Assembly (NCBI GenBank): GCA_964019135.1
Contig: OZ025248.1
Location: forward strand, 10,051,574 to 10,115,573
From: Arenicola marina
Taxonomy: Eukaryota; Annelida; Polychaeta; Arenicolidae
Length of the DNA stretch: 64,000 bases
Reading direction: 5' to 3'
The notes under the pieces are model-generated. The model was given only the letters and a program-made list of their open reading frames with translations. It did not search any database and had not been told where the DNA came from. This document shows positions 1 to 64,000 of this stretch, piece by piece (positions within the stretch are counted from its first letter, which is position 1; every line of letters begins with the position of its first letter). Position numbers and translations under genes: made by a program.

Positions 1-192
1 GCGTAGCGCGTGACCTTAGACAGCAATAACAATGGAATTCCTCTCCCCAGATGCACCATTTGCTCATCGTATATCGTTGATGAAGTAGAAAGCAAAGTTA
101 TGAATTGTAAATGTTCAGCTTGAGTGCATCTGAGAAGACGAATGACCCTAGTGATTGCTGAAGTGACCGGAGTAGTGACGTGCTGTCATGAG

Positions 193-232
193 CTAATGGT
201 GATAATTAATTGTGTCTGGCCTGTGTTTTCAG
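193..232 (+). promoter_or_regulatory. 3' splice region of the unit: branch-site candidate, pyrimidine tract, acceptor
   Basis: CTAAT at 193-197 matches the loose animal branch consensus yTnAy, with its A 37 nt before the exon. The tract before AG is short (GTGTTTTCAG). Recurrent variants of this region mark unit types: GTGTGTTCAG in the units with CSDF read-through, CTATT instead of CTAAT in the KLLAII units (for example U41, U52, U61), CTCAT in U8, U13 and U15, TTTTTAG in U10, and GTGCTTTCAG in U145 and U154. Acceptor AG and donor GT are kept in all units. Confidence 0.7.
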
Positions 233-346
233 ATTTCGACGAATGCGCCAGCAACCCATGCCAAAATGGTGGCACGTGTACTGACGCGGTGAATGGCTAC
301 TCATGTGCTTGTGTTGCTGGTTACGTAGACAACGAGTGCCAGACAG
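233..346 (+). CDS. Reference exon U1: one calcium-binding EGF domain
   Basis: This exon is a model for the others. With the junction Asp, its residues are: D1-x-D3-E4 Ca2+-binding motif; C1 at 5, C2 at 10, C3 at 16, C4 at 25, C5 at 27, C6 at 36. CASNPC (5-10) fits the O-glucosylation consensus C1-x-S-x-P-C2. CQNGGTC (10-16) fits the O-fucosylation consensus C2-x4-[ST]-C3. [12 protein letters not shown] (16-27) fits the Asp/Asn beta-hydroxylation consensus C-x-[DN]-x4-[FY]-x-C-x-C. Between C5 and C6 the sequence is VAGYVDNE: the aromatic after Gly is present, but the second Gly usual in EGF domains is Asp. The acceptor AG is at 231-232 and the donor starts at 347. Modifications are predicted from motifs, not shown. 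Confidence 0.9.
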
Positions 347-3300
347 GTGAGTTGGAGTTTGGTGGCAAATAATACCTTTTCCGGCGTAGCGCGTAACCTT
401 AGACAGCAATAACCATGGAATACCTCTCCCCAGATGCACCATTTGCTCATCGTATATTGTTGATGAAGTAGAAAGCAAAGTTATGAATTGTAAATGTTCA
501 GCTTGAGTGCATCTGAGAAGACGAATGACCCTAGTGATTGCTGAAGTGACCGGAGTAGTGACGTGCTGTCATGAGCTAATGGTGATCATTAATTGTGTCT
601 GGCCTGTGTTTTCAGATTTCGACGAATGCGCCAGCAACCCATGCCAAAATGGTGGCACGTGTACTGACGCGGTGAATGGCTACTCATGTGCTTGTGTTGC
701 TGGTTACGTAGACAACGAGTGCCAGACAGGTGAGTTGGAGTTTGGTGGCAAATAAGACATTTTCCGGCGTAGCGCGTAACCTTAGACAGCAATAACGATG
801 GAATACCTCTCCCCAGATGCACCATTTGCTCATCGTGTATTGGTGATGAAGTAGAAAGCAAAGTTATGAATTGTAAATGTTCAGCTTGAGTGCATCTGAG
901 AAGACGAATGACCCTAGTGATTGCTGAAGTGACCGGAGTAGTGACGTGCAGTCATGAGCTAATGGTGATCATTAATTGTGTCTGGCTTGTGTTTTCAGAT
1001 TTCGACGAATGCGCCAGCAACCCATGTCAAAATGGTGGCACGTGTACTGACACGGTGAATGGCTACTCATGTGCTTGTGTTGCTGGTTACGTAGACAACG
1101 AGTGCCAGACAGGTGAGTTGGAGTTTGGTGGCAAATAAGACCTTTTCCGGCGTAGCGCGTAACCTTAGACAGCAATAACGATGGAATACTTCTCCCCATA
1201 TGAATTCATATGCTCATCGTATATTGTTGTTGAAGTAGAAAGGAAAGTTATGAATTGTAAATGTTCAGCTTGAGTGCGTCTGAGAAGACGAATGACCCTA
1301 GTGATCGCTGAAGTGACCGGAGTAGTGACGCGCAGTCATGAGCTAATGGTGATCAATAATTGTGTCTGGCTTGTGTTTTCAGATTTCGACGAATGCGCCA
1401 GCAACCCATGCCAAAATGGTGGCACGTGTACTGACACGGTGAATGGCTACTCATGTGCTTGTGTTGCTGGTTACGTAGACAACGAGTGCCAGACAGGTGA
1501 GTTGGAGTTTGGTGGCAAATAAGACCTTTTCCGGCGTACCGCGTAACCTTAGACAGCAATAACGATGGAATACTTCTCCCCATATGAATTCATTTGCTCA
1601 TCGTATATTGTTGTTGAAGTAGAAAGGAAAGTTATGAATTGTAAATGTTCAGCTTGAGTGCATCTGAGAAGACGAATGACCCTAGTGATTGCTGAAGTGA
1701 CCGGAGCAGTGACGTGCTGTCATGAGCTAATGGTGATCATTAATTGTGTCTGGCTTGTGTTTTCAGATTTCGACGAATGCGCCAGCAACCCATGCCAAAA
1801 TGGTGGCACGTGTACTGACGCGGTGAATGGCTATTCATGTGCTTGTGTTGCTGGTTACGTAGACAACGAGTGCCAGGCAGGTGAGTTGGAGTTTGGTGGC
1901 AAATAAAACCTTTTCCGGCGTAGCGCGTAACCTTAGACAGCAATAACCATGGAATACCTCTCTCCAGATGCACCATTCGCTCATCGGATATTGTTGATGA
2001 AGTAGAAAGCAAAGTTATGAATTGTAAATGTTCAGCTTGAGTGCATCTGAGAAGACGAATGACCCTAGTGATTGCTGAAGTGACCGGAGTAGTGACGTGC
2101 TGTCATGAGCTAATGGTGATCATTAATTGTGTCTGGCTTGTGTTTTCAGATTTCGCCGAATGCGCCAGCAACCCATGCCAAAATGGTGGCACGTGTACTG
2201 ACGCGGTGAATGGCTATTCATGTGCTTGTGTTGCTGGTTACGTAGACAACGAGTGCCAGACAGGTGAGTTGGGGTTTGGTGGCAAATAAGACCTTTTCCG
2301 GCGTAGCATGTGACCTTAGACAGCAATAACGATGGAATACCTCTCCCCAGATGCACCATTTGCTCATCGTATATCGTTGATGAAGTAGAAAGCAAAGTTA
2401 TGAATTGTAAATGTTCAGCTTCAGTGCATCTGAGAAGACGAATGACCCTAGTGATTGCTGAAGTGACCGGAGTAGTGACGTGCTGTCATGAGCTAATGGT
2501 GATCATTAATTGTGTCTGGCTTGTGTTTTCAGATTTCGCCGAATGCGCCAGCAACCCATGCCAAAATGGTGGCACGTGTACTGACGCGGTGAATGGCTAT
2601 TCATGTGCTTGTGTTGCTGGTTACGTAGACAACGAGTGCCAGACAGGTGAGTTGGGGTTTGGTGGCAAATAAGACCTTTTCCGGCGTAGCATGTGACCTT
2701 AGACAGCAATAACGATGGAATACCTCTCCCCAGATGCACCATTTGCTCATCGTATATCGTTGATGAAGTAGAAAGCAAAGTTATGAATTGTAAATGTTCA
2801 GCTTCAGTGCATCTGAGAAGACGAATGACCCTAGTGATTGCTGAAGTGACCGGAGTAGTGACGTGCTGTAATGAGCTCATGGTGATCATTAATTGTGTCT
2901 GGCTTGTGTTTTCAGATTTCGACGAATGCGCCAGCAACCCATGCCAAAATGGTGGCACATGTACTGACGCGGTGAATGGCTACTCATGTGCTTGTGTTGC
3001 TGGTTACGTAGACAACGAGTGCCAGACAGGTGAGTTGGAGTTTGGTGGCAAATAAAACCTTTTCCGGCGTAGCGCGTAACCTTAGACAGCAATAACCATC
3101 GAATACTTCTCCCCATATGAATTCATTTGCTCATCGTATATTGTTGTTGAAGTAGAGAGCAAAGTTATGAATTGTAAATGTTCAGCTTGAGTGCATCTGA
3201 GAAGACGAATGACCCTAGTGATTGCTGAAGTGACCGGAGTAGTGACGTGCTGTCATGAGCTAATGGTGATCATTAATTGTGTCTGGCCTGTGTTTTCAGA

Positions 3301-6300
3301 TTTCGACGAATGCGCCAGCAACCCATGCCAAAATGGTGGCACGTGTACTGACGCGGTGAATGGCTACTCATGTGCTTGTGTTGCTGGTTACGTAGACAAC
3401 GAGTGCCAGACAGGTGAGTTGGAGTTTGGTGGCAAATAAGACCTTTTCCGGCGTAGCGCGTAACCTTAGACAGCAATAACGATGGAATACCTCTCCCCAG
3501 ATGCACCATTTGCTCATCGTATATTGGTGATGAAGTAGAAAGCAAAGTTATGAATTGTAAATGTTCAGCTTGAGTGCATCTGAGAAGACGAATGACCCTA
3601 GTGATTGCTGAAGTGACCGGAGTAGTGACGTTCTGTCATGAGCTAATGGTGATCATTAATTGTGTCTGGCCTGTGTTTTTAGATTTCGACGAATGCGCCA
3701 GCAACCCATGTCACAATGGTGGCACGTGTACTGACACGGTGAATGGCTACTCATGTGCTTGTGTTGCTGGTTACGTAGACAACGAGTGCCAGACAGGTGA
3801 GTTGGAGTTTGGTGGCAAATAAGACCTTTTCCGGCGTACCGCGTAACCTTAGACAGCAATAACGATGGAATACTTCTCCGCATATGAATTCATTTGCTCA
3901 TCGTATATTGTTGTTGAAGTAGAAAGGAAAGTTATGAATTGTAAATGTTCATCTTGAGTGCATCTGAGAAGACGAATGACCCTAGTGATTGCTGAAGTGA
4001 CCGGAGTAGTGACGTGCTGTCATAAGCTAATGGTGATCATTAATTGTGTCTGGCTTGTGTTTTCAGATTTCGACGAATGCGCCAGCAACCCATGCCAAAA
4101 TGGTGGCACGTGTACTGACGCGGTGAATGGCTACTCATGTGCTTGTGTTGCTGGTTACGTAGACAACGAGTGCCAGACAGGTGAGTTGGAGTTTGGTGGC
4201 AAATAAAACCTTTTCCGGCGTAGCGCGTAACCTTAGACAGCAATAACCATGGAATACTTCTCCCCATATGAATTCATTTGCTCATCGTATATTGTTGTTG
4301 AAGTAGAAAGCAAAGTTATGAATTGTAAATGTTCAGCTTGAGTGCATCTGAGAAGACGAATGACCCTAGTGATTGCTGAAGTGACCGGAGTAGTGACATG
4401 CTGTCATGAGCTAATGGTGATCATTAATTGTGTCTGGCCTGTGTTTTCAGATTTCGACGAATGCGCCAGCAACCCATGCCAAAATGGTGGCACGTGTACT
4501 GACGCGGTGAATGGCTACTCATGTGCTTGTGTTGCTGGTTACGTAGACAACGAATGCCAGACCGGTGAGTTTGAGTTTGGTGGCAAATAAGACCTTTTCC
4601 GGCGTGGCGCGTGACCTTAGACAGCAATAACGATGGAACACCTCTCCCCAGATGCACCATTTGCTCATCGTATATCGTTGATGAGGTAGAAAGCAAAGTT
4701 ATGAATTGTAAATGTTCAGCTTGAGTGCATCTGAGAAGACGAATGACCCTAGTGATTGCTGAAGTGACCGGAGTAGTGACGTGCTGTAATGAGCTCATGG
4801 TGATCATTAATTGTGTCTGGCTTGTGTTTTCAGATTTCGACGAATGCGCCAGCAACCCATGCCAAAATGGTGGCATATGTACTGACGCGGTGAATGGCTA
4901 CTCATGTGCTTGTGTTCCTGGTTACGTAGACAACGAGTGCCAGACAGGTGAGTTGGAGTTTGGTGGCAAATAAAACCTTTTCCGGCGTAGCGCGTAACCT
5001 TAGACAGCAATAACCATGGAATACTTCTCCCCATATGAATTCATTTGCTCATCGTATATTGTTGTTGAAGTAGAGAGCAAAGTTATGAATTGTAAATGTT
5101 CAGCTTGAGGGCATCTGAGAAGACGAATGACCCTAGTGATTGCTGAAGTGACCGGAGTAGTGACGTGCTGTCATGAGCTAATGGTGATCATTAATTGTGT
5201 CTGGCCTGTGTTTTCAGATTTCGACGAATGCGCCAGCAACCCCTGCCAAAATGGTGGCACGTGTACTGACGCGGTGAATGGCTACTCATGTGCTTGTGTT
5301 GCTGGTTACGTAGACAACGAATGCCAGACCGGTGAGTTGGAGTTTGGTGGCAAATAAGACCTTTTCCGGCGTAGCGCGTGACCTTAGACAGCAATAACGA
5401 TGGAATACCTCTCCCCAGATGCACCATTTGCTCATCGCATATCGTTGATGAAGTAGAAAGCAAAGTTATGAATTGTAAATGTTCAGCTTGAGTGCATCTG
5501 AGAAGACGAATGACCCTAGTGATTGCTGAAGTGACCGGAGTAGTGACGTGCTGTAATGAGCTCATGGTGATCATTAATTGTGTCTGGCTTGTGTTTTCAG
5601 ATTTCGACGAATGCGCCAGCAACCCATGCCAAAATGGTGGCACATGTACTGACGCGGTGAATGGCTACTCATGTGCTTGTGTTGCTGGTTACGTAGACAA
5701 CGAGTGCCAGACAGGTGAGTTGGAGTTTGGTGGCAAATAAAACCTTTTCCGGCGTAGCGCGTAACCTTAGACAGCAATAACCATGGAATACTTCTCCCCA
5801 TATGAATTCATTTGCTCATCGTATATTGTTGTTGAAGTAGAGAGCAAAGTTATGAATTGTAAATGTTCAGCTTGAGGGCATCTGAGAAGACGAATGACCC
5901 TAGTGATTGCTGAAGTGACCGGAGTAGTGACGTGCTGTCATGAGCTAATGGTGATCATTAATTGTGTCTGGCTTGTGTTTTCAGATTTCGACGAATGCGC
6001 CAGCAACCCATGCCATAATGGTGGCACGTGTACTGACACGGTGAATGGATACTCATGTGCTTGTGTTGCTGGTTACGTAGACAACGAGTGCCAGACAGGT
6101 GAGTTGGAGTTTGGTGGCAAATAAAACCTTTTCCGGCGTAGCGCGTAACCTTAGACAGCAATAACCATGGAATACTTCTCCCCATATGAATTCATTTGCT
6201 CATCGTATATTGTTGTTGAAGTAGAAAGCAAAGTTATGAATTGTAAATGTTCAGCTTGAGTACATCTGAGAAGACGAATGACCCTAGTGATTGCTGAAGT

Positions 6301-6866
6301 GATCGGAGTAGTGACGTGCTGTCATGAGCTAATGGTGATAATTAATTGTGTCTGGCCTGTGTTTCCAGATTTCGACGAATGCGCCAGCAACCCATGCCAA
6401 AATGGTGGCACGTGTACTGACGCGGTGAATGGCTACTCATGTGCTTGTGTTGCTGGTTACGTAGACAACGAGTGCCAGACAGGTGAGTTGGAGTTTGGTG
6501 GCAAATAAAACCTTTTCCGGCGTAGCGCGTAACCTTAGACAGCAATAACCATGGAATACTTCTCCCCATATGAATTCATTTGCTCATCGTATATTGTTGA
6601 TGAAGTAGAAAGCAAAGTTATGAATTGTAAATGTTCAGCTTGAGTGCATCTGAGAAGACGAATGACCCTAGTGATTGCTGAAGTGACCGGAGTAGTGACG
6701 TCCTGTTATGAGCTAATGGTGATCATTAATTGTGTCTGGCTTGTGTTTTCAGATTTCGACGAATGCGCCAGCAACCCATGCCAAAATGGTGGCACCTGTA
6801 CTGACGCGGTGAATGGCTACTCATGTGCTTGTGTTGCTGGTTACGTAGACAACGAGTGCCAGACAG
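233..6866 (+). CDS. Left-flank exons U1-U18
   Basis: Eighteen 114-bp exons start at 233, 616, 999, 1383, 1767, 2150, 2533, 2916, 3300, 3683, 4067, 4451, 4834, 5218, 5601, 5985, 6369 and 6753. This flank holds most amino-acid variation. U3, U4, U10 and U16 have Thr for Ala before VNGYSC. U10 and U16 have CHNGG instead of CQNGG. U5 ends CQA instead of CQT. U6 and U7 have FAEC instead of FDEC. U13 has GGIC and CVPGY. U12 and U14 end in ACCG|GTGAG rather than ACAG|GTGAG, a silent change. All keep six cysteines and an open frame. Units here run as alternating or dimeric types rather than the core higher-order pattern. Confidence 0.88.
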
Positions 6867-9800
6867 GTGAGTTTGAGTTTGGTGTCAAATAAGACCTTTT
6901 CCGGCGTAGCGCGTGACCTTAGACAGCAATAACGATGGAATACCTCTCCCAGATGCACCATTTGCTCATCGTATATTGTTGATGGAGTAGAAAGCAAAGT
7001 TATGAATTGTAAATGTTCAGCTTGAGTGCATCTGAGAAGACGAATGACCCTAGTGATTGCTGAAGTGACCGGAGTAGTGACGTGTTGCCATGAGCTAATG
7101 GTGATCATTAATTGTGTCTGGCTTGTGTTTTCAGATTTCGACGAATGCGCCAGCAACCCATGCCAAAATGGTGGCACGTGTACTGACGCGGTGAACGGCT
7201 ACTCATGTACTTGTGTTGCTGGTTACGTAGACAACGAGTGCCAGACAGGTGAGTGGGAGTTTGGTGGCAAATAAGACCTTTTCCGGCGTAGCGCGTGACC
7301 TTAGACAGCAATAACGATGGAATACCTCTCCCCAGATGCACCATTTGCTCATCGTATATTGTTGATGAACTAGAAAGCAAAGTTATGAATTGTAAATGTT
7401 CAGCTTGAGTGCATCTGAGAAGACGAATGACCCTAGTGATTGCTGAAGTGACCGGAGTAGTGACGTGTTGCCATGAGCTAATGGTGATCATTAATTGTGT
7501 CTGGCTTGTGTTTTCAGATTTCGACGAATGCGCCAGCAACCCATGCCAAAATGGTGGCACGTGTACTGACGCGGTGAACGGCTACTCATGTGCTTGTGTT
7601 GCTGGTTACGTAGACAACGAGTGCCAGACAGGTGAGTTGGAGTTTGGTGGCAAATAAGGCCTTTTCCGGCGTAGCGCGTGACCTTAGACAGCAATAACGA
7701 TGGAATACCTCTCCCCAGAAGCACCATTTGCTCATCGTGTATCGTTGATGAAGTAGAAAGCAAAGTTATGAATTGTAAATGTTCAGCTTGAGTGCATCTG
7801 AGAAGACGAAAGACCCTAGTGATTGCTGAAGTAACCGGAGTAGTGACGTGCTGTCATAAGCTAATGGCGATCATTAATTGTGTCTGGCTTGTGTGTTCAG
7901 ATTTCGACGAATGCGCCAGCAACCCATGCCAAAATGGTGGCACGTGTACTGACGCGGTGAATGGCTACTCATGTGCTTGTGTTGCTGGTTACGTAGACAA
8001 CGAGTGCCAGACAGGTGAGTTGGAGTATGGTGGCAAATAAGACATTTTCCGGCGTAGCGCGTAACCTTAGACAGCAATAACGATGGAATACCTCTCCCCA
8101 GATGCACCATTTGCTCATCGTATATTGTTGATGAACTAGAAAGCAAAGTTATGAATTGTAAATGTTCAGCTTGAGTGCATCTGAGAAGACGAATGACCCT
8201 AGTGATTGCTGAAGTGACCAGAGTAGTGACGTGCTGTCATAAGCTAATGGCGATCATTAATTGTGTCTGGCCTGTGTTTTCAGATTTCGACGAATGCGCC
8301 AGCAACCCATGCCAAAATGGTGGCACGTGTACTGACGCGGTGAATGGCTACTCATGTGCTTGTGTTGCTGGTTACGTAGACAACGAGTGCCAGACAGGTG
8401 AGTTTGAGTTTGGTGGCAAATAAGACCTTTTCCGGCGTAGCGCGTGACCTTAGACAGCAATAACGATGGAATACCTCTCCCCAGATGCACCATTTGCTCA
8501 TCGTATATTGTTGATGAACTAGAAAGCAAAGTTATGAATTGTAAATGTTCAGCTTGAGTGCATCTGAGAAGACGAATGACCCTAGTGATTGGTGAAGTGA
8601 CCGGAGTAGTGACGTGTTGCCATGAGCTAATGGTGATCATTAATTGTGTCTGGCTTGTGTTTTCAGATTTCGACGAATGCGCCAGCAACCCATGCCAAAA
8701 TGGTGGCACGTGTACTGACGCGGTGAACGGCTACTCATGTGCTTGTGTTGCTGGTTACGTAGACAACGAGTGCCAGACAGGTGAGTTTGAGTTTGGTGTC
8801 AAATAAGACCTTTTCCGGCGTAGCGCGTGACCTTAGACAGCAATAACGATGGAATACCTCTCCCGAGATGCACCATTTGCTCATCGTATATTGTTGATGA
8901 AGTAGAAAGCAAAGTTATGAATTGTAAATGTTCAGCTTGAGTGCATCTGAGAAGACGAATGACCCTAGTGATTGCTGAAGTGACCGGAGTAGTGACGTCC
9001 TGTTATGAGCTAATGGTGATCATTAATTGTGTCTGGCTTGTGTTTTCAGATTTCGACGAATGCGCCAGCAACCCATGCCAAAATGGTGGCACCTGTACTG
9101 ACGCGGTGAATGGCTACTCATGTGCTTGTGTTGCTGGTTACGTAGACAACGAGTGCCAGACAGGTGAGTTTGAGTTTGGTGTCAAATAAGACCTTTTCCG
9201 GCGTAGCGCGTGACCTTAGACAGCAATAACGATGGAATACCTCTCCCCAGATGCACCATTTGCTCATCGTATATTGTTGATGGAGTAGAAAGCAAAGTTA
9301 TGAATTGTAAATGTTCAGCTTGAGTGCATCTGAGAAGACGAATGACCCTAGTGATTGCTGAAGTGACCGGAGTAGTGACGTGTTGCCATGAGCTAATGGT
9401 GATCATTAATTGTGTCTGGCTTGTGTTTTCAGATTTCGACGAATGCGCCAGCAACCCATGCCAAAATGGTGGCACGTGTACTGACGCGGTGAACGGCTAC
9501 TCATGTGCTTGTGTTGCTGGTTACGTAGACAACGAGTGCCAGACAGGTGAGTTGGAGTTTGGTGGCAAATAAGACCTTTTCCGGCGTAGCGCGTGACCTT
9601 AGACAGCAATAACGATGGAATACCTCTCCCCAGATGCACCATTTGCTCATCGTATATTGTTGATGAAGTAGAACGCAAAGTTATGAATTGTAAATGTTCA
9701 GCTTGAGTGCATCTGAGAAGACGAATGACCCTAGTGATTGCTGAAGTGACCGGAGTAGTGACGTGTTGCCATGAGCTAATGGCGATCATTAATTGTGTCT

Positions 9801-42800: not shown

Positions 42801-45800
42801 CTGACGCGGTGAATGGCTACTCATGTGCTTGTGTTGCTGGTTACGTAGACAACGAGTGCCAGACAGGTGAGTTGGAGTATGGTGGCAAATAAGACATTTT
42901 CCGGCGTAGCGCGTAACCTTAGACAGCAATAACGATGGAATACCTCTCCCCAGATGCACCATTTGCTCATCGTATATTGTTGATGAACTAGAAAGCAAAG
43001 TTATGAATTGTAAATGTTCAGCTTGAGTGCATCTGAGAAGACGAATGACCCTAGTGATTGCTGAAGTGACCAGGGTAGTGACGTGCTGTCATAAGCTAAT
43101 GGCGATCATTAATTGTGTCTGGCCTGTGTTTTCAGATTTCGACGAATGCGCCAGCAACCCATGCCAAAATGGTGGCACGTGTACTGACGCGGTGAATGGC
43201 TACTCATGTGCTTGTGTTGCTGGTTACGTAGACAACGAGTGCCAGACAGGTGAGTTGGAGTTTGGTGGCAAATAAGACCTTTTCCGGCGTAGCGCGTGAC
43301 CTTAGACAGCAATAACGATGGAATACCTCTCCCCAGATGCACCATTTGCTCATCGTATATTGTTGATGAACTAGAAAGCAAAGTTATGAATTGTAAATGT
43401 TCAGCTTGAGTGCATCTGAGAAGACGAATGACCCTAGTGATTGGTGAAGTGACCGGAGTAGTGACGTGTTGCCATGAGCTAATGGTGATCATTAATTGTG
43501 TCTGGCTTGTGTTTTCAGATTTCGACGAATGCGCCAGCAACCCATGCCAAAATGGTGGCACGTGTACTGACGCGGTGAACGGCTACTCATGTGCTTGTGT
43601 TGCTGGTTACGTAGACAACGAGTGCCAGACAGGTGAGTTGGAGTTTGGTGGCAAATAAGGCCTTTTCCGGCGTAGCGCGTGACCTTAGACAGCAATAACG
43701 ATGGAATACCTCGCCCGAGATGCACCATTTGCTCATCGTATATCGTTGATGAAGTAGAAAGCAAAGTTATGAATTGTAAATGTTCAGCTTGAGTGCATCT
43801 GAGAAGACGAATGACCCTAGTGATTGCTGAAGTAACCGGAGTAGTGACGTGCTGTCATAAGCTAATGGCGATCATTAATTGTGTCTGGCTTGTGTGTTCA
43901 GATTTCGACGAATGCGCCAGCAACCCATGCCAAAATGGTGGCACGTGTACTGACGCGGTGAATGGCTACTCATGTGCTTGTGTTGCTGGTTACGTAGACA
44001 ACGAGTGCCAGACAGGTGAGTTGGAGTTTGGTGGCAAATAAGACCTTTTCCGGCGTAGCGCGTGACCTTAGACAGCAATAACGATGGAATACCTCTCCCC
44101 AGATGCACCATTGGCTCATCGTATATCGTTGATGAAGTAGAAAGCAAAGTTATGAATTGTAAATGTTCAGCTTGAGTGCATCTGAGAAGACGAATGACCC
44201 TAGTGATTGCTGAAGTGACCAGGGTAGTGACGTGCTGTCATAAGCTATTGGCGATCATTAATTGTGTCTGGCCTGTGTTTTCAGATTTCGACGAATGCGC
44301 CAGCAACCCATGCCAAAATGGTGGCACGTGTACTGACGCGGTGAATGGCTACTCATGTGCTTGTGTTGCTGGTTACGTAGACAACGAGTGCCAGACAGGT
44401 GAGTTTGAGTTTGGTGGCAAATAAGACCTTTTCCGGCGTAGCGCGTGACCTTAGACAGCAATAACGATAATAACCTCTCCCCAGATGCACCATTTGCTCA
44501 TCGTATATTGTTGATGAACTAGAAAGCAAAGTTATGAATTGTAAATGTTCAGCTTGAGTGCATCTGAGAAGACGAATGACCCTAGTGATTGGTGAAGTGA
44601 CCGGAGTAGTGACGTGTTGCCATGAGCTAATGGTGATCATTAATTGTGTCTGGCTTGTGTTTTCAGATTTCGACGAATGCGCCAGCAACCCATGCCAAAA
44701 TGGTGGCACGTGTACTGACGCGGTGAACGGCTACTCATGTGCTTGTGTTGCTGGTTACGTAGACAACGAGTGCCAGACAGGTGAGTTTGAGTTTGGTGTC
44801 AAATAAGACCTTTTCCGGCGTAGCGCGTGACCTTAGACAGCAATAACGATGGAATACCTCTCCCGAGATGCACCATTTGCTCATCGTATATTGTTGATGA
44901 AGTAGAAAGCAAAGTTATGAATTGTAAATGTTCAGCTTGAGTGCATCTGAGAAGACGAATGACCCTAGTGATTGCTGAAGTGACCGGAGTAGTGACGTCC
45001 TGTTATGAGCTAATGGTGATCATTAATTGTGTCTGGCTTGTGTTTTCAGATTTCGACGAATGCGCCAGCAACCCATGCCAAAATGGTGGCACCTGTACTG
45101 ACGCGGTGAATGGCTACTCATGTGCTTGTGTTGCTGGTTACGTAGACAACGAGTGCCAGACAGGTGAGTTTGAGTTTGGTGTCAAATAAGACCTTTTCCG
45201 GCGTAGCGCGTGACCTTAGACAGCAATAACGATGGAATACCTCTCCCCAGATGCACCATTTGCTCATCGTATATTGTTGATGGAGTAGAAAGCAAAGTTA
45301 TGAATTGTAAATGTTCAGCTTGAGTGCATCTGAGAAGACGAATGACCCTAGTGATTGGTGAAGTGACCGGAGTAGTGACGTGTTGCCATGAGCTAATGGT
45401 GATCATTAATTGTGTCTGGCTTGTGTTTTCAGATTTCGACGAATGCGCCAGCAACCCATGCCAAAATGGTGGCACGTGTACTGACGCGGTGAACGGCTAC
45501 TCATGTGCTTGTGTTGCTGGTTACGTAGACAACGAGTGCCAGACAGGTGAGTTGGAGTTTGGTGGCAAATAAGACCTTTTCCGGCGTAGCGCGTGACCTT
45601 AGACAGCAATAACGATGGAATACCTCTCCCCAGATGCACCATTTGCTCATCGTATATTGTTGATGAAGTAGAACGCAAAGTTATGAATTGTAAATGTTCA
45701 GCTTGAGTGCATCTGAGAAGACGAATGACCCTAGTGATTGCTGAAGTGACCGGAGTAGTGACGTGTTGCCATGAGCTAATGGCGATCATTAATTGTGTCT

Positions 45801-57800: not shown

Positions 57801-60800
57801 CAGGTGAGTTGGAGTTTGGTGGCAAATAAGACCTTTTCCGGCGTAGCGCGTGACCTTAGACAGCAATAACGATGGAATACCTCTCCCCAGATGCACCATT
57901 TGCTCATCGTATATTTTTGATGAAGTAGAACGCAAAGTTATGAATTGTAAATGTTCAGCTTGAGTGCATCTGAGAAGACGAATGACCCTAGTGATTGCTG
58001 AAGTGACCGGAGTAGTGACGTGTTGCCATGAGCTAATGGCGATCATTAATTGTGTCTGGCTTGTGTTTTCAGATTTCGACGAATGCGCCAGCAACCCATG
58101 CCAAAATGGTGGCACGTGTACTGACGCGGTGAACGGCTACTCATGTGCTTGTGTTGCTGGTTACGTAGACAACGAGTGCCAGACAGGTGAGTTGGGGTTT
58201 GGTGGCAAATAAGGCCTTTTCCGGCGTAGCGCGTGACCTTAGACAGCAATAACGATGGAATACCTCTCCCCAGATGCACCATTTGCTCATCGTGTATCGT
58301 TGATGAAGTAGAAAGCAAAGTTATGAATTGTAAATGTTCAGCTTGAGTGCATCTGAGAAGACGAATGACCCTAGTGATTGCTGAAGTGACCGGAGTAGTG
58401 ACGTCCTGTTATGAGCTAATGGTGATCATTAATTGTGTCTGGCTTGTGTTTTCAGATTTCGACGAATGCGCCAGCAACCCATGCCAAAATGGTGGCACCT
58501 GTACTGACGCGGTGAATGGCTACTCATGTGCTTGTGTTGCTGGTTACGTAGACAACGAGTGCCAGACAGGTGAGTTTGAGTTTGGTGGCAAATAAGACCT
58601 TTTCCGGCGTAGCGCGTGACCTTAGACAGCAATAACGATGGAATACCTCTCCCCAGATGCACCATTTGCTCATCGTATATTGTTGATGAAGTAGAAAGCA
58701 AAGTTATGAATTGTAAATGTTCAGCTTGAGTGCATCTGAGAAGACGAATGACCCTAGTGATTGCTGAAGTGACCGGAGTAGTGACGTGTTGCCATGAGCT
58801 AATGGTGATCATTAATTGTGTCTGGCTTGTGCTTTCAGATTTCGACGAATGCGCCAGCAACCCATGCCAAAATGGTGGCACGTGTACTGACGCGGTGAAC
58901 GGCTACTCATGTGCTTGTGTTGCTGGTTACGTAGACAACGAGTGCCAGACAGGTGAGTTTGAGTTTGGTGGCAAATAAGGCCTTTTCCGGCGTAGCGCGT
59001 GACCTTAGACAGCAATAACGATGGAATACCTCTCCCCAGATGCACCATTTGCTCATCGTATATTGTTGATGAAGTGGAACGCAAAGTTATGAATTGTAAA
59101 TGTTCAGCTTGAGTGCATCTGAGAAGACGAATGACCCTAGTGATTGGTGAATTGACCGGAGTAGTGACGTGCTGTCATGAGCTAATGGTGATCATTAATT
59201 GTGTCTGGCTTGTGTTTTCAGATTTCGACGAATGCGCCAGCAACCCATGCCAAAATGGTGGCACGTGTACTGACGCGGTGAACGGCTACTCATGTGCTTG
59301 TGTTGCTGGTTACGTAGACAACGAGTGCCAGACAGGTGAGTTTGAGTTTGGTGGCAAATAAGACCTTTTCCGGCGTAGCGCGTGACCTTAGACAGCAATA
59401 ACGATGGAATACCTCTCCCCAGATGCACCATTTGCTCATCGTATATTGTTGATGAAGTAGAAAGCGAAGTTATGAATTGTAAATGTTTAGCTTGAGTGCA
59501 TCTGAGAAGACGAATGACCCTAGTGATTGCTGAAGTGACCGGAGTAGTGACGTGCTGTCATAAACTAATGGCGATCATTAATTGTGTCTGGCTTGTGTTT
59601 TCAGATTTCGACGAATGCGCCAGCAACCCATGCCAAAATGGTGGCACGTGTACTGACGCGGTGAATGGCTACTCATGTGCTTGTGTTGCTGGTTACGTAG
59701 GCAACGAGTGCCAGACAGGTGAGTTGGAGTTTGGTGGCAAAAAAGACCTTTTCCGGCGTAGCGCGTGACCTTAGACAGCAATAACGATGGAATACCTCTC
59801 CCCAGATGCACCATTTGCTCATCGTATATTGTTGATGAAGTAGAAAGCAAAGTTATGAATTGTAAATGTTCAGCTTGAGTGCATCTGAGAAGACGAATGA
59901 CCCTAGTGATTGCTGAAGTGCCCGGAGTAGTGACGTGCTATCATAAGCTAATGGCGATCATTAATTGTGTCTGGCTTGTGTTTTCAGATTTCGACGAATG
60001 CGCCAGCAACCCATGCCAAAATGGTGGCACGTGTACTGACGCGGTGAACGGCTACTCATGTGCTTGTGTTGCTGGTTACGTAGACAACGAGTGCCAGACA
60101 GGTGAGTTTGAGTTTGGTGGCAAATAAGACCTTTTCCGGCGTAGCGCGTGACCTTAGACAGCAATAACGATGGAATACCTCTCCCCAGATGCACCAATGG
60201 CTCATCGTATATCGTTGATGAAGTAGAAAGCAAAGTTATGAATTGTAAATGTTCAGCTTGAGTGCATCTGAGAAGACGAATGACCCTAGTGATTGCTGAA
60301 GTGACCGGAGTAGTGACGTGCTGTCATAAACTAATGGCGATCATTAATGGTGTCTGGCTTGTGTTTTCAGATTTCGACGAATGCGCCAGCAACCCATGCC
60401 AAAATGGTGGCACGTGTACTGACGCGGTGAATGGCTACTCATGTGCTTGTGTTGCTGGTTACGTAGACAACGAGTGCCAGACAGGTGAGTTGGAGTTTGG
60501 TGGCAAATAAGACCTTTTCCGGCGTAGCGCGTGACTTTAGACAGCAATAACGATGGAATACCTCTCCCCAGATGCACCATTTGCTCATCGTATAATGTTG
60601 ATGAAGTAGAAAGCAAAGTTATGAATTGTAAATGTTCAGCTTGAGTGCATCTGAGAAGACGAATGACCCTAGTGATTGGTGAAGTGACCGGAGTAGTGAC
60701 GTCCTGTTATGAGCTAATGGTGATCATTAATTGTGTCTGGCTTGTGTTTTCAGATTTCGACGAATGCGCCAGCAACCCATGCCAAAATGGTGGCACGTGT

Positions 60801-63800
60801 ACTGACGCGGTGAACGGCTACTCATGTGCTTGTGTGGCTGGTTACGTAGACAACGAGTGCCAGACAGGTGAGTTGGAGTTTGGTGGCAAATAAGACTTTC
60901 CCGGCGTGGCGTGTAACCTTAGACAGCAATAACGATGGAATACCTCTCCCCAGATGCACCATTTGCTCATCGTATATTGTTGATGAAGTAGAAAGCAAAG
61001 TTATGAATTGTAAATGTTCAGCTTGAGTGGATCTGAGAAGACGAATGACCCTAGTGATTGGTGAAGTGACCGGAGTAGTGACGTCCAGTCATGAGCTAAT
61101 GGTGATCATTAATTGTGTCTGGCTTGTGTTTTCAGATTTTGACGAATGCGCCAGCAACCCATGCCAAAATGGTGGCACGTGTACTGACACGGTGAATGGC
61201 TACTCATGTGCTTGTGTTGCTGGTTACGTAGACAACGAGTGCCAGACAGGTGAGTTGGAGTATGGTGGCAAATAAGACATTTTCCGGCGTAGCGCGTAAC
61301 CTTAGACAGCAATAACGATGGAATACCTCTCCCCAGATGCACCATTTGCTCATCGTATATTGTTGATGAAGTAGAAAGCGAAGTTATGAATTGTAAATGT
61401 TTAGCTTGAGTGCATCTGAGAAGACGAATGACCCTAGTGATTGGTGAATTGACCGGAGTAGTGACGTGCTGTCATGAGCTAATGGTGATCATTAATTGTG
61501 TCTGGCTTGTTTTTTCAGATTTCGACGAATGCGCCAGCAACCCATGCCAAAATGGTGGCACGTGTACCGACGCGGTGAATGGCTACTCATGTGCTTGTGT
61601 TGCTGGTTACGTAGACAACGAGTGCCAGACAAGTGAGTTGGAGTTTGGTGGCAAATAAGACCTTTTCCGGCGTAGCACGTGACCTTAGACAGCAATAACG
61701 ATGGAATACCTCTCCCCAGGTGCACCATTTGCTCATCGTATATTGTTGATGAAGTAGAAAGCAAAGTTATGAATTGTAAATGTTCAGCTTGAGTGCATCT
61801 GAGAAGACGAATGACCCTAGTGATTGGTGAAGTGACCGGAGTAGTGACGTCCTGTTATGAGCTAATGGTGATCATTAATTGTGTCTGGCTTGTGTTTTCA
61901 GATTTCGACGAATGCGCCAGCAACCCATGCCAAAATGGTGGCACCTGTACTGACGCGGTGAATGGCTACTCATGTGCTTGTGTTGCTGGTTACGTAGACA
62001 ACGAGTGCCAGACAGGTGAGTTGGAGTTTGGTGGCAAATAAGACCTTTTCCGGCGTAGCGTGTAACCTTAGACAGCAATAACGATGGAATACCTCTCCCC
62101 AGATGCACCATTTGCTCATCGTATATTGTTGATGAAGTAGAAAGCAAAGTTATGAATTGTAAATGTTCAGCTTGAGTGGATCTGAGAAGACGAATGACCC
62201 TAGTGATTGGTGAAGTGACCGGAGTGGTGACGTGCAGTCATGAGCTAATGGTGATCATTAATTGTGTCTGGCTTCTGTTTTCAGATTTTGACGAATGCGC
62301 CAGCAACCCATGCCAAAATGGTGGCACGTGTACTGACGCGGTGAATGGCTACTCATGTGCTTGTGTTGCTGGTTACGTAGACAACGAGTGCCAGACAGGT
62401 GAGTTGGAGTATGGTGGCAAATAAGACATTTTCCGGCGTAGCGCGTAACCTTAGACAGCAATAACGATGGAATACCTCTCCCCAGATGCACCATTTGCTC
62501 ATCGTATATTGTTGATGAAGTAGAAAGCGAAGTTATGAATTGTAAATGTTTAGCTTGAGTGCATCTGAGAAGACGAATGACCCTAGTGATTGGTGAATTG
62601 ACCGGAGTAGTGACGTGCTGTCCTGAGCTAATGGTGATCATTAATTGTGTCTGGCTTGTGTTTTCAGATTTCGACGAATGCGCCAGCAACCCATGCCAAA
62701 ATGGTGGCACGTGTACTGACGCGGTGAACGGCTACTCATGTGCTTGTGTTGCTGGTTACGTAGACAACGAGTGCCAGACAGGTGAGTTGGAGTTTGGTGG
62801 CAAATAAGACCTTTTCCGGCGTAGCGTGTGACCTTAGACAGCAATAACGATGGAATACCTCTCCCCAGATGCACCATTGGCTCATCGTATATCGTTGATG
62901 AAGTAGAAAGCAAAGTTATGAATTGTAAATGTTCAGCTTGAGTGCATCTGAGAAGACGAATGACCCTAGGGATTGCTGAAGTGACCGGAGTAGTGACGTG
63001 CTGTCATAAGCTAATGGCGATCATTAATTGTGTCTGGCTTGTGTTTTCAGATTTCGACGAATGCGCCAGCAACCCATGCCAAAATGGTGGCACGTGTACT
63101 GACGCGGTGAATGGCTACTCATGTGCTTGTGTTGCTGGTTACGTAGACAACGAGTGCCAGACAGGTGAGTTGGAGTTTGGTGGCAAATAAGACCTTTTCC
63201 GGCGTAGCGCGTGACCTTAGACAGCAATAACGAGGGAATACCTCTCCCCAGATGCACCATTTGCTCATCGTATATTGTTGATGAAGTAGAAAGCAAAGTT
63301 ATGAATTGTAAATGTTCAGCTTGAGTGCTTCTGAGAAGACGAATGACCCTAGTGATTGCTGAAGTGACCGGAGTAGTGACGTGTTGCCATGAGCTAATGG
63401 TGATCATTAATTGTGTCTGGCTTGTGTTTTCAGATTTCGACGAATGCGCCAGCAACCCATGCCAAAATGGTGGCACGTGTACTGACGCGGTGAACGGCTA
63501 CTCATGTGCTTGTGTTGCTGGTTACGTAGACAACGAGTGCCAGACAGGTGAGTTGGAGTTTGGTGGCAAATAAGACCTTTTCCGGCGTAGCGCGTGACCT
63601 TAGACATCAATAACGATGGAATACCTCTCCCCAGATGCACCATTTGCTCATCGTATATTGTTGATGAAGTAGAAAGCAAAGTTATGAATTGTAAATGTTC
63701 AGCTTGAGTGCATCTGACAAGACGAATGACCCTAGTGATTGCTGAAGTGACCGGAGTGGTGACGTGCAGTCATGAGCTAATGGTGATCATTAATTGTGTC

Positions 63801-63930
63801 TGGCTTCTGTTTTCAGATTTTGACGAATGCGCCAGCAACCCATGCCAAAATGGTGGCACGTGTACTGACACGGTGAATGGCTACTCATGTGCTTGTGTTG
63901 CTGGTTACGTAGACAACGAGTGCCAGACAG
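233..63930 (+). CDS. Internal part of a giant EGF-repeat protein gene (167 exons)
   Basis: Seen: 167 exons of 114 bp, all + strand, all phase 1-1, each translating as one EGF-like domain. After splicing, the last base of one exon (G) joins AT of the next to make Asp, giving a 38-residue repeat that begins [16 protein letters not shown] and ends GYVDNECQT. The six cysteines follow EGF order, and six residues separate C6 from the next C1, the spacing found between tandem Notch domains. Known family: calcium-binding EGF arrays form stiff extracellular rods in Notch, fibrillin and fibropellin-like proteins. Inferred: a secreted or membrane-anchored adhesion, matrix or receptor protein whose ends lie outside the window. 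Exon starts: U1-U18 are listed under the left flank; U19-U81 at 7135+383k; U82-U116 at 31263+383k; U117-U135 at 44667+383k; U136-U159 at 51945+383k; U160-U167 at 61136+383k. Orthology to any named gene cannot be decided from repeats alone. Confidence 0.85.
347..615 (+). other. Reference intron (269 bp) between U1 and U2
   Basis: This phase-1 intron starts GTGAGT and ends GTTTTCAG. Reading on from the exon meets TAA about nine codons in (after FGGK), so retention truncates the protein. The intron is not a multiple of three. A good branch-point candidate, CTAAT, lies about 37 nt before the acceptor (576-580 here). A second AG preceded by TGTT lies 114 nt upstream of the true exon start and is followed at once by an in-frame TGA. 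No transposon, hairpin RNA or independent gene is visible inside it. The same intron recurs through the window with scattered substitutions. Confidence 0.88.
2150..2646 (+). CDS. Exon pair U6 and U7 lacking one Ca2+-ligand Asp (FAEC)
   Basis: Exons 2150-2263 and 2533-2646 both read GCC for GAC at the third residue, so the D-x-D-E motif becomes D-x-A-E (changed base at 2156 and 2539). The consensus position is normally Asp or Asn, so calcium affinity of these two domains should fall and the rod may flex here. Both units also share the donor-side variant GTTGGGG and the downstream GCATGTGACC, so they are a recent 383-bp duplication of one altered unit. Six cysteines and the glycosylation motifs are intact. 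Confidence 0.85.
2310..3055 (+). other. Two introns with an extended in-frame opening ahead of U7 and U8
   Basis: The TGA that normally closes the exon frame about 112 nt upstream of the exon is TCA at 2421-2423 and 2804-2806. The frame therefore stays open over 2310-2672 and 2693-3055, about 120 codons each, including most of the intron plus the exon. The same change creates a new AG (CTTCAG ending at 2424 and 2807) next to the existing TGTTCAG (ending at 2418 and 2801). Use of either would add exactly 36 or 38 in-frame codons to the exon. The added residues show no EGF features. Whether this is spliced is unknown; the constitutive acceptor is intact. Confidence 0.5.
4451..5714 (+). repeat. 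Local dimer repeat U12-U13 and U14-U15
   Basis: Two consecutive 2-unit blocks (about 767 bp each) alternate the same pair of types. The first member has GAATGCCAGACCG at the exon end. The second has GCTGTAATGAGCTCATGG in the upstream intron, and the intron after it carries AATAAAACC with the ATGAATTCAT cassette. This is a shorter-period higher-order pattern than the core and points to separate local duplication in the left flank. U13 gained private changes (Thr to Ile, Ala to Pro) after the duplication. Confidence 0.75.
4834..4947 (+). CDS. Variant exon U13: lost O-fucose site, Ala to Pro
   Basis: The codon before C3 is ATA (Ile) rather than Thr (changed base 4876). The C2-x4-[ST]-C3 consensus for protein O-fucosyltransferase 1 is therefore absent in this domain only. 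A second private change gives CVPGY instead of CVAGY (4917). The O-glucose motif, Ca2+ motif and cysteines are unchanged, and the splice sites are normal. Confidence 0.8.
7135..17589 (+). CDS. Core exons U19-U46
   Basis: Twenty-eight 114-bp exons start at 7135 and then every 383 bp, the last at 17476. Differences between them are few: AAT/AAC (silent) in NGYS, ACG/ACC (silent) in GGTC, TTC/TTT (silent) in U30, Ala to Thr between C4 and C5 (CTC) in U19, U33 and U35, and Val to Met in U28. Introns show recurrent types: TCCTGTTATGAGC (U24, U31, U37, U43), GTGTGTTCAG acceptors (U21, U26, U29, U40), GACCAGAG or GACCAGGG (U22, U27, U38, U41, U45) and GATTGGTG (U23, U28, U30, U36, U39, U42). Type order here is irregular, with 6- and 7-unit spacing between TCCTGTTATGAGC units. 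Confidence 0.88.
7135..52058 (+). CDS. Nine scattered exons with Thr between C4 and C5
   Basis: Exons starting at 7135, 12497, 13263, 27434, 40838, 45816, 49263, 50029 and 51945 read YSCTC instead of YSCAC (GCT to ACT). All but the first come from one intron type (GTGTTGCC plus ATGGCGATC). The variant is carried as part of a unit type that has been copied around the array, not as independent mutations. The residue between C4 and C5 is variable in EGF domains and Thr is common there, so no loss of function is expected. Confidence 0.82.
10582..10695 (+). CDS. Variant exon U28: Val to Met
   Basis: The codon before NGYSC is ATG instead of GTG, seen only in this unit. It falls in the spacer between C3 and C4, where many residues are tolerated. 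The Asp hydroxylation motif (C-x-D-x4-Y-x-C) stays intact. This private change helps date unit duplications: the corresponding unit 96 positions to the right (U124) still has Val, so the change came after that copying event. Confidence 0.8.
17859..21305 (+). repeat. Nine-unit higher-order segment U47-U55
   Basis: Exons start at 17859 and every 383 bp to 20923. The block opens with a TCCTGTTATGAGC unit (U47). It then runs through a common type, a GACCAGGG type with the private AAGATGAATG change (U49, near 18526), common, GTGTGTTCAG, KLLAII, common, GACCAGGG and common units. The next TCCTGTTATGAGC unit comes nine units (3,447 bp) later at U56, followed two units on by the same AAGATG variant (U58, near 21973). 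The AAGATG pair 3,447 bp apart is direct evidence of a multi-unit copy event. Confidence 0.82.
20540..31759 (+). repeat. Long-range duplication, left copy (35-unit offset)
   Basis: Unit types U54-U83 match U89-U118 in order, 13,404 bp apart, with two notable differences (AAGATG only in U58; U66 and U101 differ in type). The strongest support is in U69-U83, whose irregular order is repeated exactly. Three otherwise rare intron variants are shared at the same offset: CTCGCCC (30305 and 43709), CGATAATAACC (31061 and 44465), and GACCAGGG combined with KLLAII (U81 and U116). Exact breakpoints need a dot plot. Confidence 0.82.
21306..26667 (+). repeat. Two adjacent 7-unit higher-order repeats (U56-U62, U63-U69)
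   Basis: Blocks 21306-23986 and 23987-26667 are each seven units (2,681 bp). Both have the same type order: TCCTGTTATGAGC, common, GACCAGGG, common, GTGTGTTCAG, KLLAII (CTATT branch region) and GATTGGTG with the GTTTGAGTTTGGTGTC donor side. Exons start every 383 bp from 21306 to 26285 and are all intact. The same order returns at U91-U97 and, with one substituted type, at U98-U104. This is the basic higher-order repeat of the array core. Confidence 0.85.
26668..34440 (+). CDS. Core exons U70-U90
   Basis: Exons start at 26668 and every 383 bp to 30881 (U81), then at 31263 (U82) and every 383 bp to 34327 (U90). A repeated three-unit motif lies here: the order GTGTGTTCAG, GACCAGGG, GATTGGTG occurs at U74-U76 and again at U77-U79. 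The single 382-bp step follows a complex change in the intron before U82 (CGATAATAACC at 31061 instead of CGATGGAATACC). U72 carries the YSCTC variant. U85 has the private intron change ATCCTT (32384). Confidence 0.88.
32412..33674 (+). repeat. Four-unit segment U85-U88, copied 38 units to the right
   Basis: U85-U88 correspond to U123-U126 (46965-48227), 14,553 bp away. Shared rare variants are ATCCTTAATT (32384 and 46937) and GAAAGTAAAG (33421 and 47974), and the type order is the same. The offset differs by three units from the neighbouring 35-unit duplication. Three units were therefore gained on the right or lost on the left between the two matching stretches. Confidence 0.78.
33944..45163 (+). 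repeat. Long-range duplication, right copy (35-unit offset)
   Basis: This is the partner of 20540-31759. Exons start at 33944 and every 383 bp to 44285 (U116), then at 44667 and 45050. It contains two further 7-unit blocks (34710-37390 and 37391-40071) and the second copy of the irregular stretch U104-U118. Private changes that arose after duplication include GACCGTTTCC near 37151 and CCCAGCTGC near 39508. To the right the match with the left copy stops after U118, and a different offset (38 units) takes over at U123. Confidence 0.82.
34710..40071 (+). repeat. Two more 7-unit higher-order repeats (U91-U97, U98-U104)
   Basis: Blocks 34710-37390 and 37391-40071 repeat the order described at 21306-26667. 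In the second block the fourth unit (U101) is a GATTGGTG type instead of the common type, and its intron partner changes with it. This suggests a patch of gene conversion or a crossover inside the block. All fourteen exons (34710 to 39689 in 383-bp steps) are open. Confidence 0.82.
45433..53207 (+). CDS. Core exons U119-U139
   Basis: Exons start at 45433 and every 383 bp to 51561 (U135), then at 51945 (U136) and every 383 bp to 53094. U120, U129, U131 and U136 carry YSCTC. U126 has the silent TTT codon that also marks U30. The order of U123-U131 repeats that of U27-U35 almost unit for unit, 36,766 bp away, so this stretch is related to the left part of the core rather than to its immediate neighbours. 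Confidence 0.88.
46965..50142 (+). repeat. Segment U123-U131 related to U27-U35 (96-unit offset)
   Basis: Two rare changes are shared at 36,766 bp: the TTC to TTT exon change (11352 and 48118) and GTAACC in a TCCTGTTATGAGC unit (11663 and 48429). The surrounding type order also agrees, then continues at 97 units after one extra GATTGGTG unit (U132/U133). The left counterpart is 10199-13376. U28 Met and U123 ATCCTT are later private changes. Confidence 0.75.
51781..51810 (+). repeat. Possible recombination joint in the intron before U136
   Basis: The intron reads GATGGAAGTAGAACGC. Other units read either GATGGAGTAGAAAGC or GATGAAGTAGAACGC. The one-base-longer sequence here combines the GG of the first with the AACGC of the second and makes this unit 384 bp. 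A crossover or conversion edge with slippage explains it well; a simple one-base insertion is the alternative. Confidence 0.5.
53477..59335 (+). CDS. Exons U140-U155 with an 8-unit partial repeat
   Basis: Exons start at 53477 and every 383 bp to 59222. U140-U144 and U148-U152 match in type at an 8-unit offset (3,064 bp). Both sets contain an unusual unit with GCGAAGTT, TTTAGCTT and GGTGAATTGACC in its intron (U141 and U149), and a CGTAACC variant two units later. U145 and U154 share the GTGCTTTCAG acceptor. U141 has ACA and U153 ACC for the Thr of GGTC (silent). U155 keeps the GAATTGACC intron. This region is the transition between the homogenised core and the diverse right flank. Confidence 0.86.
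59605..59718 (+). CDS. Variant exon U156 with the canonical EGF glycine
   Basis: This is the only exon with GYVGNEC instead of GYVDNEC (GAC to GGC at 59701). It restores the Gly that most EGF domains have at this position between C5 and C6. The intron after it is also odd: T to A at 59742 removes the TAA that normally stops intron read-through, so the frame runs on for a further eight codons. Splice sites are normal. Whether Gly is ancestral or a reversion cannot be told from one copy. Confidence 0.8.
59605..63930 (+). CDS. Right-flank exons U156-U167
   Basis: Exons start at 59605, 59988, 60371, 60754, 61136, 61519, 61902, 62285, 62668, 63051, 63434 and 63817. U160 and U167 have Thr for Ala before VNGYSC, and U160, U163 and U167 have the CAGTCATGAGC intron, both otherwise found only in the far left flank. 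U163 and U167 share a CTTCTGTTTTCAG acceptor. U160, U163 and U167 use TTT for the Phe of DFDEC. The 382-bp step before U160 comes from GACTTTCCCGGCG. The array is still running at the window end. Confidence 0.88.
61519..61632 (+). CDS. Variant exon U161 with altered last base
   Basis: The exon ends CAA|GTGAGT instead of CAG|GTGAGT (61632). The donor GT is kept but the exon-end match to U1 is weaker. After splicing the junction codon becomes AAT, so the first residue of the next domain (U162) is Asn instead of Asp, still allowed by the [DN]-x-[DN]-[EQ]-C calcium motif. The acceptor of this exon is also unusual (TTGTTTTTTCAG, a longer pyrimidine run). A silent ACC for ACT lies after C3. Confidence 0.78.
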
Positions 63931-64000
63931 GTGAGTTGGAGTTTGGTGGCAAATAAGACCTTTTCCGGCGTAGCGCGTGACCTTAGACAGCAATAACGAT

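Follow-up and report, generated by a model that had tools for sequence, protein, structure and literature searches.

Coding sequences in which exons have been cloned together with their introns into tandem arrays are known in principle. In the LRR genes of Tetrahymena, arrays are built from exactly 90-bp phase 2 exons, and in the youngest LRR group of T. thermophila the introns are mostly about 257 bp long, giving a unit of 347 bp (PMC6564038). This species carries from 1 to 51 of the 90-bp LRR exons per gene, in thousands of genes, an expansion attributed to unequal crossing-over, possibly together with retrotransposition; in the portion of their report cited here, the authors state that they are unaware of tandem repeats in another eukaryote whose exons and introns are as uniform as these (PMC6564038). 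Another coding repeat with copied introns is kringle IV type 2 (KIV-2) of LPA, a coding VNTR with a 5.6-kb unit that comprises exons of 160 and 182 bp and a 4-kb intron and is present in 1 to over 40 copies (PMC6314250; see also PMC11462820). Among giant extracellular proteins, Dumpy of Drosophila contains over 300 EGF repeats as well as about 40 nearly identical 102-residue PIGSFEAST repeats that have undergone concerted evolution, probably by unequal crossing-over (PMC2930355). More generally, a survey of domain repeats has found that exon junctions are over-represented in interdomain linkers, most of all in EGF and IG repeats (PMC1553488). A flatworm adhesive protein is known to contain 17 calcium-binding EGF modules in series (PMC6410801), and in a survey of huge proteins a term search of the main text finds no mention of EGF (PMC11573180).

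The window considered here, which is the whole 64,000-nt stretch of DNA that was analysed, is occupied from base 1 to base 64000 by a single tandem array of exon-intron cassettes on the + strand, with a period of 383 bp, 167.1 copies, 97% matches and 0% indels as determined by Tandem Repeats Finder, and with both ends running off the window. It contains 167 complete 114-bp exons, all on the + strand, from the first at 233-346 to the 167th and last at 63817-63930; these were located by a scan with the exon sequence that tolerated substitutions and not indels, so that the 114-bp length of the copies is built into the scan. The distance from exon to exon is 383 bp in 152 of the 166 intervals, 384 bp in 10 and 382 bp in 4 and, as every interval thus lies at 382-384 bp, no exon copy was missed by the scan. 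The exon columns of the unit alignment are gap-free, intron lengths stay within 268-270 bp across the array, and G+C content is even along it (0.455-0.471). Exons begin and end in phase 1. The first complete one encodes one EGF domain of 38 residues, and the first codon of each such domain starts with the closing base of the preceding exon. The first complete intron (347-615, + strand, 269 bp) has a GTGAGT donor and a TTTTCAG acceptor and is copied with every exon. A chance origin of this pattern is excluded. A preliminary description of this DNA had proposed at least 167 near-identical EGF exons and an alternation of 114-bp exons with introns of ~269 bp filling 64 kb, both of which are borne out, the former by the scan together with a Pfam profile match. 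From these properties we infer that the array belongs to one gene, and the window probably represents a run of coding exons from one giant gene for an extracellular protein, most likely that of an animal to judge by domain type, motifs and introns, in which a cassette array grown by in-register unequal crossing-over would encode a rod of EGF domains.

Comparison with the known systems illustrates both the familiar and the unusual aspects of this locus. Like the Tetrahymena LRR arrays, it is a tandem series of exon-intron cassettes in which exon size is constant and the introns share one phase; unlike the ciliate exons, which encode LRRs in phase 2 and number at most 51 per T. thermophila gene (PMC6564038), its exons encode EGF domains in phase 1 and number at least 167 in one array. 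Likewise, it resembles LPA KIV-2 in being a coding tandem repeat of an extracellular domain, composed of nearly identical units that each contain exon sequence and a copied intron, although the domain in LPA is a kringle rather than an EGF, and its unit is larger, has two exons and is present in fewer copies (PMC6314250). With Dumpy it would share the character of a giant, EGF-rich extracellular protein with repeats homogenised in concert. In Dumpy, however, the repeat that evolves in concert is PIGSFEAST, contained in a large exon, most EGF domains are interspersed with DPY modules, and the cited portion of that account does not describe a cloned exon-intron cassette (PMC2930355). The earlier suggestion that cloned-intron arrays are without precedent was thus overstated, as LPA KIV-2 and the 90-bp LRR exons of Tetrahymena, in the portions of the reports cited, already exemplify the principle, in smaller copy numbers. 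What lacks a counterpart among the literature matches listed is the domain together with the purity and the copy number: these matches include no EGF exon array of such domain, purity and copy number, which is no proof of absence. If transcribed, the locus would indicate that cloned-intron coding repeats may far exceed the copy numbers cited for LPA (over 40; PMC6314250) and T. thermophila (51; PMC6564038).

The identity of the repeated domain is supported by Pfam profiles and by PDB sequence matches. A three-domain consensus scores 96.8 bits against the Pfam EGF profile (PF00008; cut-off 21.5, E 7.6e-28), in three stretches, and 49.1 bits against EGF_CA (PF07645; cut-off 27, E 6.8e-13); with these scores above the curated cut-offs and six conserved cysteines, the domain is a member of the EGF-like domains. 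In a comparison with PDB sequences, 87 reach E 0.001 or better, headed by Delta-like protein 1 (4xbm, E 2.5e-58), with Notch 1 chains next, and along the best stretch of Delta-like 1 (4xbm 386-497) the alignment is gap-free through three domains and both linkers. One 38-residue protein sequence is common to 145 of the 167 domains, and there are ten versions in total. When the domains are compared with the standard consensus patterns for calcium binding and Asp/Asn hydroxylation, the former ([DN]x[DN][EQ]C) is found in 165 of the 167, in 164 as DxDEC, and the latter (C-x-[DN]-x4-[YF]-x-C) in all 167, which is the motif content of calcium-binding EGF tandems of the Notch/Delta/fibrillin type. 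Numbering the units from unit 0, which starts with the exon at 233, the neighbouring units 5 and 6 (exons 2150-2263 and 2533-2646) have in common a replacement of Asp by Ala at a presumed calcium ligand, among the few changes that affect a motif residue. The POGLUT1 O-glucose motif C-x-S-x-P/A-C is present in 167 of 167 domains and the POFUT1 O-fucose motif C-x4-S/T-C in 166 of 167, one domain being without its O-fucose Thr (for the consensus patterns, see PMC7803782). In a scan of the 167 domains, 0 EOGT-like sites and 0 N-glycosylation sequons were found. A single-sequence AlphaFold2 model of one domain was of low confidence (mean pLDDT 62.1, pTM 0.26) and was given no weight. In their cbEGF-type domains and O-Glc/O-Fuc motifs, and in a linker spacing equal to that of Delta-like 1, the repeats are similar to those of Notch, Delta-like, fibrillin and fibropellin proteins, and they look like clones of a Notch/Delta-like calcium-binding EGF domain. 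The EGF tandems of those proteins have tens of domains, all different, and we know of no array of cloned introns among them.

Splicing signals and reading frame are preserved throughout. Donor GT and acceptor AG are intact at 167 of 167 exons, and the last two exon bases with the donor read AG/GTGAGT in 164, CG/GTGAGT in 2 and AA/GTGAGT in 1 of the 167; with the intron copied along with each exon, the expansion unit is the complete, splice-competent exon-intron cassette that had been proposed. The joined exons form a frame of 6,346 codons that is free of stops, in agreement with the initial estimate of more than 6,300 residues with both ends outside the window, and that includes 1,002 cysteines, 6 per unit, with no variant unit in which a cysteine is lost. 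Retention of an intron leads to a stop 8 codons past the exon in 166 of the 167 units and 16 codons past it in the remaining one, while upstream of the exon 36 in-frame codons with a Met stay open in 162 of 166 units. Stand-alone single-unit genes are disfavoured, as an unspliced unit would yield one domain and a tail, in a frame that closes 8 or 16 codons into the intron. Because the exons are symmetrical in phase 1, copy number can change with the frame unharmed, and therefore homologous recombination within the repeat is compatible with selection that preserves the frame. Open reading frames of 70-150 aa also recur on the reverse strand in most units (e.g. 2506-2958; called with bacterial start codons), probably as a by-product of the repeat. 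The 64-kb window is array from end to end, and within it no promoter, signal peptide or gene end was seen, nor any domain other than EGF.

Variation among the copies provides evidence of a different type. The statistics refer to the 166 complete units, with the 167th exon omitted as its full intron is not in the window. The impression that introns are almost as alike as exons holds only in part: introns are the more diverse, with a nucleotide diversity of 0.0357 against 0.0110 for exons, and variable columns amount to 106 of 271 and 21 of 114, respectively. Exons have 23 variants per 114 columns, against 43-58 in every window of that size inside the intron, and the indel columns (n = 5) are all intronic. 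When expected exon variants are computed with rates from the intron spectrum, 12 synonymous variants are seen where 11.8 are expected, whereas 11 nonsynonymous variants are seen where 36.3 are expected, so that omega is 0.30; the units are related and subject to conversion, making variants non-independent and the P values for this contrast (binomial P 0.004) and for the nonsynonymous deficit (Poisson P 9e-7), like those that follow, descriptive. With pseudocounts the expectations are 12.3 synonymous and 38.4 nonsynonymous. The contrast is found as well among variants present in at least 2 units (synonymous 8, 6.5 expected; nonsynonymous 3, 20.8 expected; P 0.0008) or at least 3 units (5, 4.8 expected; 2, 15.2 expected; P 0.011). 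In the edge units alone, 12 synonymous (9.1 expected) and 9 nonsynonymous variants (27.2 expected) give P 0.002; in the core units alone, the corresponding values are 5 (5.6 expected) and 3 (17.5 expected), P 0.024, a contrast that rests on 8 variants, and at a frequency of at least 2 they are 3 (4.3 expected) and 1 (12.5 expected), P 0.054, with 4 variants. Private variants, confined to one unit and obtained by subtraction, indicate weak constraint (nonsynonymous 8 versus 15.5 expected, synonymous 4 versus 5.3). By codon position, 14 exon variants are at the third, 6 at the first and 3 at the second, and 0 stops are seen in exons where 2.0 are expected. As amino-acid changes are depleted while synonymous changes match expectation, the array has evolved under protein-level selection. 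It seems, from this pattern of variants, to have passed most of its history as translated sequence, and the newest copies are likely to be translated still.

The distribution of variants along the array is far from even. Among the 166 complete units, 85 sequences are distinct. With core and edge limits that were picked after inspection of the data, the left part (1-7900, + strand, units 0-19) has 20 distinct units of 20, at a mean nearest-neighbour distance of 4.5 of 385 columns; the homogenised core (7901-60370, + strand, units 20-156) has 56 distinct units of 137, with an identical twin for 105 of the 137 and a mean distance of 0.53 columns; and in the right part (60371-64000, + strand, units 157-166) units 157-165 are distinct in 9 cases of 9, at a mean distance of 5.6 columns, a count from which the last exon is omitted, its intron running past the end of the window. 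No identical twin exists for any of the 20 units at the left edge or the 9 at the right. A divergent intron subtype, differing from the other units by a mean of 19.3 columns, occurs in units 2, 3, 7, 9, 10, 12, 14, 15 and 16 (~999-6752) and only there, and is perhaps a relic of an older state of the array. The divergent units at both window edges hint that the array may end not far beyond the window.

Higher-order repeats are found in the core at lags of 7, 9, 13, 16, 20 and 35 units, among others. Defining near-identical pairs as those with at most one differing column, and taking 300 shuffles of core unit order as the null, there are 31 such pairs at lag 35 and 22 at lag 7; the shuffles do not exceed 19 at any lag up to 59, or 17 at lag 7. 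The longest near-identical block comprises units 52-82 (20157-32028, + strand) and recurs 35 units on as units 87-117 (33561-45432, + strand), with 6 differing columns summed over the 31 units; exact repeats extend to 5,850 bp, the longest being that at 26104 and 39508. Higher-order blocks, including this apparent 35-unit tandem duplication, are absent from the preliminary description, which was nevertheless right about satellite-like behaviour: as in satellite DNA, the array is homogenised in its core, has higher-order repeats and is divergent at its edges, the edges being those of the window. This higher-order pattern, strongest in mid-array, is as expected of unequal crossing-over and conversion.

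Such behaviour, namely the uniform period, the higher-order repeats and the divergent edges, would also be exhibited by a non-coding satellite, in which an exon with part of its introns had been captured from an EGF gene and amplified untranslated, and the weak constraint on private variants, known by subtraction, could be read in the same way. That origin is quite improbable given amino-acid variants at about 0.3 of expectation alongside synonymous ones at expectation, stops or lost splice dinucleotides in 0 of 167 exons, indels in the exon columns of 0 of 166 units, and an exon variant density below that of every 114-column window inside the intron; satellite DNA would be free of protein-level selection, whereas nonsynonymous variants number 11 here against 36.3 expected. 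The same block structure raises the issue of assembly, in that a real array could have been inflated by an assembler that duplicated blocks (the 35-unit block, or two haplotypes placed end to end), leaving fewer true copies. The 6 columns separating units 52-82 from units 87-117 over 31 units and the exact repeats of up to 5,850 bp might be so explained, yet the block copies differ at scattered sites, and even when units 87-117 are removed 83 of the remaining 135 units are distinct, with edge units that have no identical twin. A small array blown up by the assembler is therefore untenable and inflation in general unlikely, including the assembly expansion of a few units that had been named at the outset as what would undo the finding, as 85 of 166 units are distinct.

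Two further alternatives concern how the exons are used. A signalling role would be compatible with the POGLUT1 and POFUT1 motifs that nearly every domain carries and with Delta-like 1 and Notch 1 as the best matches among PDB sequences, the product being a Notch/Delta-type ligand, receptor or decoy whose glycosylated EGF domains act as repeated binding sites rather than as a structural rod. Notch EGF domains are each individually different, however, and clone-like domains would better suit a repeated mechanical or adhesive unit; with no second domain type in a window that is array throughout, a signalling role appears rather unlikely. Tandem exons of the same size with strong splice sites could, on the other hand, form a Dscam-like pool of mutually exclusive alternatives. 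This is scarcely conceivable, because with 145 of 167 domains identical in protein the choice would yield almost no diversity, and the symmetric phase permits all exons to be joined.

If the window does hold the coding exons of one giant gene, each exon, in phase 1 at either end, encodes one complete EGF domain, such that gain, loss and skipping keep the frame, and both the expansion and the uniformity of the array would result from in-register unequal crossing-over or gene conversion between cassettes. Recombination steps, judged from the higher-order repeats and divergent edges, would range from a few to 35 units and be busiest in the middle, while selection, judged from the pattern of variants, purges amino-acid changes, stops and splice-site damage and allows introns and synonymous sites to drift. 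The exons would be joined in one transcript, and the product, presumably secreted or membrane-anchored, would be 6,346 residues long or more, consisting of a single domain repeated with little change. Canonical calcium-binding linkers between neighbours would be expected to make of it a calcium-stiffened rod, estimated from the length of an EGF domain (2.5-3 nm) at roughly 0.4-0.5 micrometre, with putative O-glucose, O-fucose and Asp hydroxylation sites on almost every domain. The least certain step is its role, which would most likely be structural, as a spacer or filament in the extracellular matrix, in a cuticle or egg coat, or in an adhesive secretion.

From sequence considerations, the chances are about even that this is a "coding satellite", in which one animal gene consists mostly of a satellite-like array of at least 167 cassettes and encodes an EGF homopolymer of more than 6,300 residues. 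In that case, recombination within the array would govern how long the molecule is, so that its length would vary between individuals and evolve fast, while selection within the array would keep nearly all units translatable and spliceable. If transcribed, the locus would be an extreme natural test of two things: the accuracy of a spliceosome that has to join well over a hundred near-identical exons separated by introns that are near-identical too, and the action of selection within a satellite-like array. It would also provide a natural polymer of a single EGF domain, of use for studying calcium-dependent rod mechanics and EGF glycosylation.

Other features of the repeat were also sought. The window has 0 matches to Rfam RNA families at gathering score and 0 tRNA-type genes by ARAGORN, and folding of one intron is unremarkable (z -0.78). 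Searches for relatives covered viral and prokaryote collections, and thus say little about animals: an exact 26-base exon pattern has 0 matches in viral contigs, an exact 31-base intron pattern has 0 in prokaryote genomes, and a pattern for the three-domain protein consensus matches 7 viral and 17 prokaryote contig stretches, none confirmed. Within the intron itself, a 21-bp stretch at alignment columns 248-268 (478-498 in the first intron, + strand) has no variant in 166 introns; this longest invariant run of the intron, chosen after looking and equalled in 0.2% of shuffles, may be a candidate splicing or recombination element.
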